Positions 11,102-61,918 of a stretch of DNA of 64,000 nt are shown piece after piece (positions within the stretch are counted from its first letter, which is position 1; each line of letters begins with the position of its first letter). The stretch spans positions 674,001-738,000 of the forward strand of contig AP017913.1 in NCBI GenBank assembly GCA_002091395.1, in the 5' to 3' direction. The position numbers and the translations under genes are program-made. This DNA comes from Candidatus Azobacteroides pseudotrichonymphae (GTDB lineage Bacteria; Bacteroidota; Bacteroidia; Bacteroidales; Azobacteroidaceae). The notes beneath the pieces are model-generated. The model had not been told where the DNA came from and ran no database searches. It was given only the letters and a program-made list of their open reading frames with translations.

Positions 11102-13105
11102 TCATACTGGGTCTACGTCATAGTGAACAATACCACGCCTAAAATATGAAACATTAAATATTTGCATATAAATTTCTTTTAATATTTTACGTACAAAACT
11201 TGGAGAACTATTAATTTCAATTTTTAATAGTATTTTTCGAACATAAAGCCCCTTTGTCTTACCTACTATTGGCCTATCATGACCAACAACTCTATCATTC
11301 CCGAAATTTTTTTTCAAAAAATAAATGTATCCATCAGATAATTTACAAAGTAACTTTTCGTCACTATTATAAAGAAATATATGTATTAATCTAAATAATG
11401 GCGGATATTTAAATAATACTCTATCCTTTATTTGCATATCGTACATATTTCTATAATCATGTCGAATAATCATCTTAATCAACTGATGATCTGGATGAAA
11501 AGTTTGAATAATAACTTCGCTTTGAATTTTGTTACCACATACTTTTCCTAATATTTGCAATATTAATTGATAAGTTCTCTCATATGCCCTAAAGTCAGGA
11601 AAATTCATTAAAACATCAATATTAAGTATAGCAATCAAGCCAACTTTACTCATATTTAACCACCTAGAAACCATCTGAGTTCCAATTAAAATTTGTGTTT
11701 GTCCACTTTCAAAATTAGAAATTACCTTTTTTAATGAACTTTTTTGTTTTACTGTATCAAAATCCATACGATCAATTACTACATTGTTGAAAATCATTTT
11801 AATTTCTTCCTCTACTTTTTCTGTCCCATACCCAATTGATTTTAAATGAATATTTCCACATTTAGGGCATTCTTTAGGGAGAGAATAATTTTTCCCACAA
11901 TAATGACAAACTAATTGATTATTTTTTTTATGATAAATAAGACTTATATCACAAAAATGACATTTAGGAGTCCAATAACAAATTTTACAAAAAATACGAA
12001 ATGAAAATCCTCTCCGATTTTGGAATAATAGTACTTGAACACCATTCTCTAATTTTTGTTTTATACGTTTTATTAGTAAAGGGGAAAAAATTGGTTCATT
12101 TCCCAACCTTTTTAATCCTTTTACATCTACAATAGTATATAATGGTTTGATTTGTGGCAAATAATCATACAATTTGATATATGCATATTTCCCTATTTGA
12201 GCATTATAAAACGACTCTATTGAAGGCGTTGCACTTCCTAAAAGTACTTTAGCACCATGTATAGTCGCTAAAAAAATTGCTGCATTACGTACATGATAGC
12301 AAAAAGAAGCTTTTTGTTGTTTATAATTTGGATCATGCTCTTCATCTACAATAATTAATCCCAAATTTTTAAAAGGTAAAAATATAGAAGAATGAACTCC
12401 TAATATAATTGAGTACACATCATTATACAAAAGATTATTCCAAATTTCTATTTGTTTACTCAAATTTATTTTTGAATGATAAACTCCTACAATGTTGCCA
12501 AAATAGTATTTTAAACGATTAATGACACACGTAGCCAGTGCAATGTCTGGTAATAGATACAATATTTGTTTTTTTTGTCGCAGCATTCTTTCAATAATTT
12601 GTATATAAATTTCTTTTTCTCCTAAAAAAATATTTTTATGCAAAAGGCAAATATCCTTTTTTTGAAAATTATACATAATATTGTCAATTATTTTTTTTTT
12701 TGATCTATTCAAGGCAGAAGAAAACACAGGTAATACATTACAATTTTTCAATTGACTATCTACTGTATGAAAAGACGAAGGAATCGCTTTTTTAAAAACT
12801 TCACCCAAAGTACATAAATAATAATCTGAAATCCATTTCCAAAAACGCAATTGTGATCGCAAAACTACAGGCAAAATACTTTCTATAGAAAGTATAGGTT
12901 TTATTTTTTCTAAACTAACAATTGGTGATGGATTTTTTTTTAAATATAAAACTAAACCACGACGAGGTTTATTACTTTTACCAAATTTTACCAACACTAA
13001 ACTACCAACTAAAACCTGTGTTTCCATTTCAGTAGGAACAAAATAAGTGAATGTGCCTTCTAAAGGTATAGGTAAAACAATTTCTATATACAATTTATTT
13101 TTCAA
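11102..13105 (-). CDS. priA: Primosomal protein PriA with degenerate ATPase motifs
   Basis: PriA recognises stalled forks and reloads the replicative helicase. The protein is 667 aa, shorter than usual for the family. The N-terminal 3' DNA-binding domain is present (LPIPLEGTFTYFVP), but the stretch between about residues 105 and 150, where the winged helix is expected, is much reduced. The Walker A position after LLH reads KNIFLGEKE (157-165) where GVTSSGKTE is usual, so the P-loop lysine is lost. DEEH (254-257) and GSATPS (290-295) remain. Motif VI reads GKVCG (520-524) in place of GRAGR. All eight zinc cysteines (373, 376, 382, 385, 400, 403, 413, 416) and the C-terminal YDVDP remain. The frame is intact for 2 kb, so this looks like a maintained protein without helicase ATPase activity. 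Confidence 0.93.
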   Translation of the reverse strand: MKNKLYIEIVLPIPLEGTFTYFVPTEMETQVLVGSLVLVKFGKSNKPRRGLVLYLKKNPSPIVSLEKIKPILSIESILPVVLRSQLRFWKWISDYYLCTLGEVFKKAIPSSFHTVDSQLKNCNVLPVFSSALNRSKKKIIDNIMYNFQKKDICLLHKNIFLGEKEIYIQIIERMLRQKKQILYLLPDIALATCVINRLKYYFGNIVGVYHSKINLSKQIEIWNNLLYNDVYSIILGVHSSIFLPFKNLGLIIVDEEHDPNYKQQKASFCYHVRNAAIFLATIHGAKVLLGSATPSIESFYNAQIGKYAYIKLYDYLPQIKPLYTIVDVKGLKRLGNEPIFSPLLIKRIKQKLENGVQVLLFQNRRGFSFRIFCKICYWTPKCHFCDISLIYHKKNNQLVCHYCGKNYSLPKECPKCGNIHLKSIGYGTEKVEEEIKMIFNNVVIDRMDFDTVKQKSSLKKVISNFESGQTQILIGTQMVSRWLNMSKVGLIAILNIDVLMNFPDFRAYERTYQLILQILGKVCGNKIQSEVIIQTFHPDHQLIKMIIRHDYRNMYDMQIKDRVLFKYPPLFRLIHIFLYNSDEKLLCKLSDGYIYFLKKNFGNDRVVGHDRPIVGKTKGLYVRKILLKIEINSSPSFVRKILKEIYMQIFNVSYFRRGIVHYDVDPV

Positions 13106-13382: not shown

Positions 13383-14003
13383 CTATTTTCTACTAAAATC
13401 TGCTGAAATTTCACCCCATTTTTTAGTATCCCACTTAAAAACTAGATCTATATAACAACTATTGTTTCTTAGCCATTTTTCTGCCTTATAAATTAAATTA
13501 AAAATGCATATATTTTTATCCGATTGTTTTAATTTCGTTTTACATTTTCTATTTTGAACCCATGAAATAGCAACTTTACTATCAGAGTAAATAGGAATCA
13601 AAAAACTTTTCTGCTTAATCCATGTTAGTCCATGTACAATTGCCAAAAATTCTCCTATATTGTTAGTTCCATCTTGAAATGGGCCAACATGAAATATTTC
13701 TTCTTTTGTTTTCATATAAATACCCCTATATTCAATTCTGCCAGGATTTCCACTACACGCAGCATCTACTGATAAACTGTTAGAATCAATTTCTAACATT
13801 CCCCCCACCCCAGATTTTATGTCTGTATAAAATTGAGGACCTAATTCATATGCTTTTTTTGCTTCTTGATGTGAAAAAAAAGATTTATAAGACGAATTAT
13901 TAAATTTATCCACTTGTTTTTTACATTCATCCCATGTTTCATAAACACCTGGTTCAAACCCATGCCAAACCACATACCATTTTCGTTTTAAATTATTCTT
14001 CAC
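13383..14003 (-). CDS. rnhA: Ribonuclease HI with N-terminal viroplasmin domain
   Basis: Degrades the RNA strand of RNA-DNA hybrids such as R-loops and primer remnants. The protein is 206 aa. Residues 1-50 form the caulimovirus-viroplasmin (hybrid-binding) domain (KWYVVWHGFEPGVYETWDEC), a fusion common in Bacteroidales. The RNase H fold follows with D in SVDAACSGNP, E in NNIGEFLA, D in YSDSKVA and the final D in ADFSRK, so the DEDD set is complete. The gene is separate from neighbours, with 277 bases before priA and a gene-free region upstream. Confidence 0.94.
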   Translation of the reverse strand: MKNNLKRKWYVVWHGFEPGVYETWDECKKQVDKFNNSSYKSFFSHQEAKKAYELGPQFYTDIKSGVGGMLEIDSNSLSVDAACSGNPGRIEYRGIYMKTKEEIFHVGPFQDGTNNIGEFLAIVHGLTWIKQKSFLIPIYSDSKVAISWVQNRKCKTKLKQSDKNICIFNLIYKAEKWLRNNSCYIDLVFKWDTKKWGEISADFSRK

Positions 14004-61615: not shown

Positions 61616-61918
61616 ATGTTTAGTATGCAACAAATAAATCCACAATCAATAAAAAACATTTTAAAAAAATTTTTTAAAGAAAATCCAAAAATAACAAACA
61701 AACTTGATGAAGCACATCTATTAAGTTATTGGAATAATTGTACAGATCCAATAATTCGTTACTATACACACAATGTCTTCATTAAGAATCGCACCTTTTA
61801 TGCAGAATTGAAATCACCTGCATTAAAAAACGAATTAATGATGCAGAGAGAAGAAAAAGTTAAAGAACTCAATAAAGTAGTCGGCAAAAGTATTATTGAT
61901 CGCATCGTTTTTATTTAA
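61616..61918 (+). CDS. DUF721 family protein (DciA-like)
   Basis: A 100-aa protein of the DUF721 family, whose DciA members help load the replicative helicase in bacteria without DnaC. Marks are LLSYWNNCTDPIIRYYTHNVFIKNRTFYAELKSPALKNEL and the final KVVGKSIIDRIVFI. The start is ATG 61616; a second ATG three codons in is possible. The 3' end overlaps that of the Rel/Spo gene by 4 bases on the opposite strand. With PriA's ATPase motifs lost, other loading routes such as this become relevant. Confidence 0.85.
   Translation: MFSMQQINPQSIKNILKKFFKENPKITNKLDEAHLLSYWNNCTDPIIRYYTHNVFIKNRTFYAELKSPALKNELMMQREEKVKELNKVVGKSIIDRIVFI

Follow-up and report, generated by a model that had tools for sequence, protein, structure and literature searches.

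Why do bacteria conserve the helicase of PriA although Escherichia coli grows without it? The priA gene on chromosome 1 of 'Candidatus Azobacteroides pseudotrichonymphae' ProJPt-1, an endosymbiont of a termite-gut protist, bears on this question. The original prediction, made on the 64,000 nucleotides of DNA analyzed here (the window), was that this PriA has the fold of all its domains but destroyed ATPase motifs, and that it persists as a fork-binding loading platform. We examined the gene, its sister in the genome CfPt1-2 (G003 in our genome numbering) and its relatives across the Bacteroidales.

The open reading frame at positions 11102–13105 (minus strand) spans 667 codons with zero stops, and a profile search identifies its product as PriA. 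The protein matches TIGR00595 with 455–456 bits (cut-off 230.35), contains the 3′-DNA-binding domain (PF17764, 81 bits) and the PriA zinc ribbon (PF18319), and matches PRK05580 with 540 bits. The ProJPt-1 genome is closed, with 250x coverage (PMC5478533). In this genome (99% complete), the gene is the one TIGR00595 match above the cut-off; two other weak PriA-profile matches are RecG and UvrB, and no second intact priA was found. Translation more likely begins at the TTG at 13093–13091, giving 663 aa, than at the upstream TTG (13105) from which the reading frame had earlier been counted, because the former lines up with the initiating ATG of 'MYIEV' in relatives, and CfPt1-2 also has TTG there. 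In both Azobacteroides symbionts, an ATG start appears to have become TTG (13091–13093), which may mean low expression of priA. Directly upstream on the same strand lies a gene for RNase HI with a Cauli_VI N-terminal domain (13383–14003, minus strand), and this gene order is preserved in CfPt1-2 although the genomes are heavily rearranged. Elsewhere in the window, the DciA gene, next to a RelA/SpoT homolog, is conserved in CfPt1-2. The features are listed in Table 1.

Table 1 Positions of the priA features and of the dciA gene in the window
Feature	Position	Strand	Basis
priA coding sequence, most likely start TTG (663 aa)	11102..13093	-	Profiles; start from the relatives' ATG and the CfPt1-2 TTG
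3′-DNA-binding domain, residues 8-109, kept	12779..13084	-	PF17764; 17/17 congener-invariant columns unchanged
Winged-helix/linker remnant, residues 111-150	12656..12775	-	Short genus-wide, intact PriAs included
Motif I (Walker A) destroyed, KNIFLGEKE for GVTSSGKTE	12611..12637	-	Alignment
GVHSS for G[VA]RS[SA], R to H, common to CfPt1-2	12386..12400	-	Alignment
Motif II DEEH, kept	12335..12346	-	Alignment
Aromatic-rich loop degenerate, YKQQKASFCYHVRN for YKQQDPAPRYHARN	12284..12325	-	Alignment
Motif III GSATPS, kept	12221..12238	-	Alignment
Cysteine-rich region, 8/8 zinc ligands kept	11858..11989	-	PF18319; alignment
Motif V destroyed, SRWLNMS for SKGLDF[DE]	11648..11668	-	Alignment
Motif VI destroyed, ILGKVCGN for V[AS]GR[AT]GRR	11531..11554	-	Alignment
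C-terminal domain, residues 572-667, kept	11102..11392	-	8/9 invariant columns
DciA, candidate DnaB loader, not adjacent to priA	61616..61918	+	PF05258; CfPt1-2 ortholog w=0.12

The window protein was aligned with 49 further PriAs from the genus and the order, 29 of them from intact congeners. All 29 have G-V/I-T-x-x-G-K-T-E, G[VA]RS[SA], [SA]KGLDF and GR[AT]GR. In the ProJPt-1 protein the P-loop (residues 157–165) lacks the GK[ST] of active helicases, the conserved arginine of G[VA]RS[SA] is a histidine (residues 236–240), motif V is destroyed (480–486) and motif VI (518–525) reads GKVCG where GRxGR is expected. The aromatic-rich loop is lost as well, with QQKASFCYHVRN in place of QQDPAPRYHARN. 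Motif II (254–257) is that of an active helicase, and so the degenerate Walker B of Deinococcus-type pseudohelicases is absent here; motif III (290–295), motif IV and all eight zinc cysteines are also retained. Alignment with the intact congeners therefore reproduces the changes to Walker A, GVHSS, motif V and motif VI as they were originally quoted, together with the persistence of DEEH, GSATPS, the cysteines and the open frame. In lacking the Walker A lysine while being conserved and full-length, the protein resembles the Deinococcus-type pseudohelicases.

The PriA of CfPt1-2 reads KNISLGEIE, GVHSS, YKGLNIN and EKVKRQ at the corresponding positions, so that GRxGR is again missing, and a lysine is missing from its P-loop both at the catalytic position and beside it. 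Both symbionts share the R-to-H change and five derived residues of the P-loop, and the loss thus predates their split. The lysine is absent from two independently sequenced, complete genomes, which rules out sequencing error.

We consider it very probable, judging from sequence, that the single functional PriA of ProJPt-1 neither binds nor hydrolyzes ATP, does not unwind DNA, and is kept as an ATP-independent fork platform that reloads DnaB. The 3′-DNA-binding domain, the helicase-lobe surface, the C-terminal domain and the zinc region would bind branched forks or D-loops, and PriA would hand the lagging-strand template to a DnaB loader, most likely DciA. Replication would then restart with no need to unwind the nascent lagging strand first, and forks that need removal of this strand would be served by another helicase, such as UvrD, or be left unrepaired. 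The genome encodes RecA, RecG, a UvrD-type helicase, AddA and DciA, the last being the putative partner of PriA. Such a platform has precedents. E. coli PriA with the K230R substitution has no ATPase or helicase activity, yet it can still assemble primosomes and sustain stable DNA replication (PMC7326373), and the substitution stops PriA from unwinding D-loops (PMC4752480). The PriA of Deinococcus radiodurans is naturally without ATPase activity and binds forks and DnaB (PMC4504706). The part of the platform prediction that concerns the missing motor motifs, the conservation of the protein and the retained zinc and DNA-binding parts is borne out by observation; that the ProJPt-1 protein has no ATPase activity, binds forks and recruits DnaB or DciA is inferred.

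Degenerate PriAs also occur elsewhere in the order. DNA patterns for PriA motifs were searched in 393 Bacteroidales genomes (≥95% complete), with the P-loop pattern found in 366 and the motif VI pattern in 358. Following up the genomes with no match gave 13 with a degenerate PriA: the two Azobacteroides genomes, eight of a family numbered f76, and G277, G264 and G135. In the remaining no-match genomes, PriA is intact with codon or residue variants, is cut off by the end of a contig, or is missing from the assembly. The genus adds two further cases. In G011 (L037) the lysine is replaced by glycine, motif II reads DREH and motifs V and VI are lost, leaving I, II, V and VI degenerate. In G036 (L036) the P-loop is intact while motifs V and VI are lost, a hint that motif VI may be the first to disappear. 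A further scan of genome contigs matched only intact, distant PriAs or fragments.

All eight sampled genomes of f76, from two genera and 2.2–2.4 Mb in size, encode PriAs in which the P-loop and motifs V and VI are degenerate (L099–L103, L105–L107). In some of these the aligned lysine stays and the flanking G and T are lost, and in G264 and G135 the lysine is retained and motif VI is lost. Loss of ATPase activity is accordingly less certain in the lysine-keeping PriAs of f76, G264 and G135 than in those of ProJPt-1 and CfPt1-2. The f76 PriAs are under strong purifying selection (dN/dS of 0.09 and 0.12 in two pairs). The family probably belongs to the Porphyromonadaceae (Porphyromonas-like), since the dipeptidyl-peptidase 11 of one of its genomes (G413) matches PDB 4xzy with 1471 bits over 720 residues, and we take this group of structures to be from Porphyromonas. 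In G135 (L090) the P-loop SSGKTQ is intact, motif V reads SRWLDF and motif VI SEKACR; its KG-to-RW change in motif V is the same as in the window PriA, apparently by convergence.

All 15 degenerate PriAs keep 8/8 zinc cysteines and 13–15 of the 15 residues of the 3′-DNA-binding domain that are invariant in 64 intact PriAs. In a FastTree phylogeny from which the columns of the helicase motifs were excluded, degenerate and intact PriAs are interspersed (INDEPENDENCE). A mixture-model tree of the genus places ProJPt-1 with CfPt1-2 (100%) and G036/G011 in different supported clades, and a single origin of the degenerate PriAs of the genus is rejected (AU, p = 1e-5). These trees suggest at least about five separate motor losses in the Bacteroidales, with long branches making the placement of f76, G277 and G264 unsure. 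The original prediction saw motor loss specifically as the end state of a reduced genome. That explanation is weakened, and a reduced genome is not needed for the loss, because the same kind of loss is found in Bacteroidales genomes of ordinary size (2–3 Mb), and throughout the sampled members of f76. Within the open-access literature, to which the search was confined, no PriA pseudohelicase was reported from Bacteroidales or Porphyromonas.

One wider reading of the repeated losses, which we hold only tentatively, is that unwinding is needless or harmful where DciA loads DnaB, with selection acting on fork recognition and the zinc region only. If true, the conserved core of PriA would be structure recognition and loader docking, and unwinding an optional add-on. 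A variant of this, compatible with the fork platform and adding a reason for it, is that the motor is a liability that is repeatedly removed where DciA or RecG remodels the fork. It draws on the suppression of recG defects by E. coli priA300, which also stops D-loop unwinding (PMC4752480, PMC7326373), on the independent motor losses in the Bacteroidales, and on the finding of DciA in G000, G003, G011 and the Thermus and Deinobacterium control genomes. However, most Bacteroidales PriAs are intact, as judged by the P-loop pattern, and ProJPt-1 has RecG, so that the argument from suppression is not forced. In addition, DciA (PF05258) had no match in G036, the DciA data cover G000, G003, G011 and G036 among the degenerate lineages, and neutral loss of a dispensable activity fits the pattern equally well. 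We regard a motor removed as a liability as rather improbable.

The pattern of retention separates loss of the motor from decay of the gene. Of 172 columns that are invariant in the intact congeners, 52 lie in nine helicase motifs and 120 elsewhere. The window PriA retains 34/52 of the motif columns versus 111/120 of the others (Fisher p = 2e-5), including every invariant column of the 3′-DNA-binding domain and the zinc region and all but one in the C-terminal domain; CfPt1-2 retains 39/52 versus 112/120. In a leave-one-out control, intact members kept 52 of 52–54 motif columns. Based on G/A/R/P columns alone, the window PriA keeps 11/21 in motifs versus 24/25 elsewhere. The RecG (GDVGSGKT, DEQH, QLRGRVGR) and UvrB (GVTGSGKT, DESH) of ProJPt-1 are intact, with GKT and motif VI preserved. 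Together with the G/A/R/P columns, these two proteins rule out AT drift or global motif decay.

Loss of repair genes is known from other small symbionts, and priA could be eroding toward a pseudogene as selection relaxes in a reduced genome. The branch of the ProJPt-1 PriA is long (0.62, versus 0.23 for CfPt1-2), the sister retains more motif residues, and the start codon has turned TTG; the faster branch and the fewer motif residues suggest that relaxation continues in ProJPt-1. Against decay, the frame is open in both genomes, although about 20 stops are expected on one lineage without selection. Since the split of the two genomes, dN/dS has been 0.23 (NG86) or 0.14 (YN00), only rough values because dS is close to saturation, but not the value near 1 that decay would give. 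PriA is as well conserved between the two (identity 0.636) as intact RecG (0.644) and nearly as well as UvrB (0.68), among 37 reciprocal-best pairs of which several of the lowest-ranked may not be true orthologs. The zinc and DNA-binding residues are kept, and the related loss in the Porphyromonas-like genomes is under strong constraint. Based on dN/dS and the RecG-level identity, we conclude that priA is not decaying; with the open frame and the stop expectation added, a pseudogene is ruled out, and decay toward one is quite unlikely.

Still less credible is that ATP is bound or hydrolyzed via a shifted or unconventional P-loop and that a weak helicase remains, for although DEEH, GSATPS and motif IV are kept and the window protein has a lysine one position further on (GEKE), CfPt1-2 has GEIE without any lysine there, motif V and the arginines of motif VI are lost as well, and K230R by itself abolishes the ATPase of E. 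coli PriA (PMC4504706).

A fork platform without a motor is not new in kind, PriA pseudohelicases having been known since 2015. The D. radiodurans PriA (Lopper et al. 2015, PMC4504706) is likewise a full-length ortholog, encoded by a gene that has been kept, in which the Walker A lysine is replaced; loss of ATPase activity was measured in that protein, whereas for ProJPt-1 we infer it. In Deinococcus-Thermus PriAs the lost motifs are I (K to R) and II, while the ProJPt-1 protein loses I, V, VI and the aromatic-rich loop, keeps II, III and IV, and lost its motor recently, among the intact PriAs of its clade. E. coli K230R (priA300) also lacks the Walker A lysine and is the engineered proof that the ATPase is dispensable for primosome assembly (PMC7326373), but it is one laboratory substitution with the other motifs and the winged helix intact. 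The intact congeners (such as L033, L011 and L050) share the domain order and the eight cysteines of the window PriA, many of them with a short winged-helix region, yet have every helicase motif intact. Actinobacterial PriAs (NCBIfam PRK14873 models) are described as lacking the helicase motifs and are believed to be helicase-dead; the match of the window protein to PRK14873 is far weaker than to PRK05580 (103 versus 540 bits), and the actinobacterial loss is much older. New here are a motor loss that is recent, bracketed by the phylogeny and different in its motif signature, and, on sequence evidence, the recurrence of such losses in a single order in which the DNA-binding and zinc parts remain fixed. 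The recent loss, the intact close relatives and the further losses in the order amount to a natural experiment, in which a motorless clade separates the selected parts of PriA (3′-end binding, zinc region, C-terminal domain) from the dropped parts. The losses in other lineages point to tractable organisms for studying restart without unwinding.

The prediction that all domains persist stands for the 3′-DNA-binding domain, the zinc region and the C-terminal domain, but the winged-helix region is almost absent. It comprises 58 aa, versus about 210 in other families, and a winged helix was not found in it. The shortening had been noted and is real, but it is genus-wide and shared by many intact congeners and is thus not diagnostic; since intact PriAs of the genus are short too, winged-helix loss as part of the motor-loss event is ruled out. 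An AF2 model of the window protein (mean pLDDT 75) has as its best Foldseek match chain 8fak_H, fork-bound E. coli PriA (TMq 0.83), with pLDDT under 50 at the P-loop (159–162) and the aromatic-rich loop (258–266), among other places. The predicted match supports a PriA fold, although it is partly imposed by an AF2 input alignment of mostly intact PriAs. Within the genus the winged-helix shortening is graded, from 58 to about 150 aa (L005–L053, residues about 100–156), in proteins whose motors are intact.
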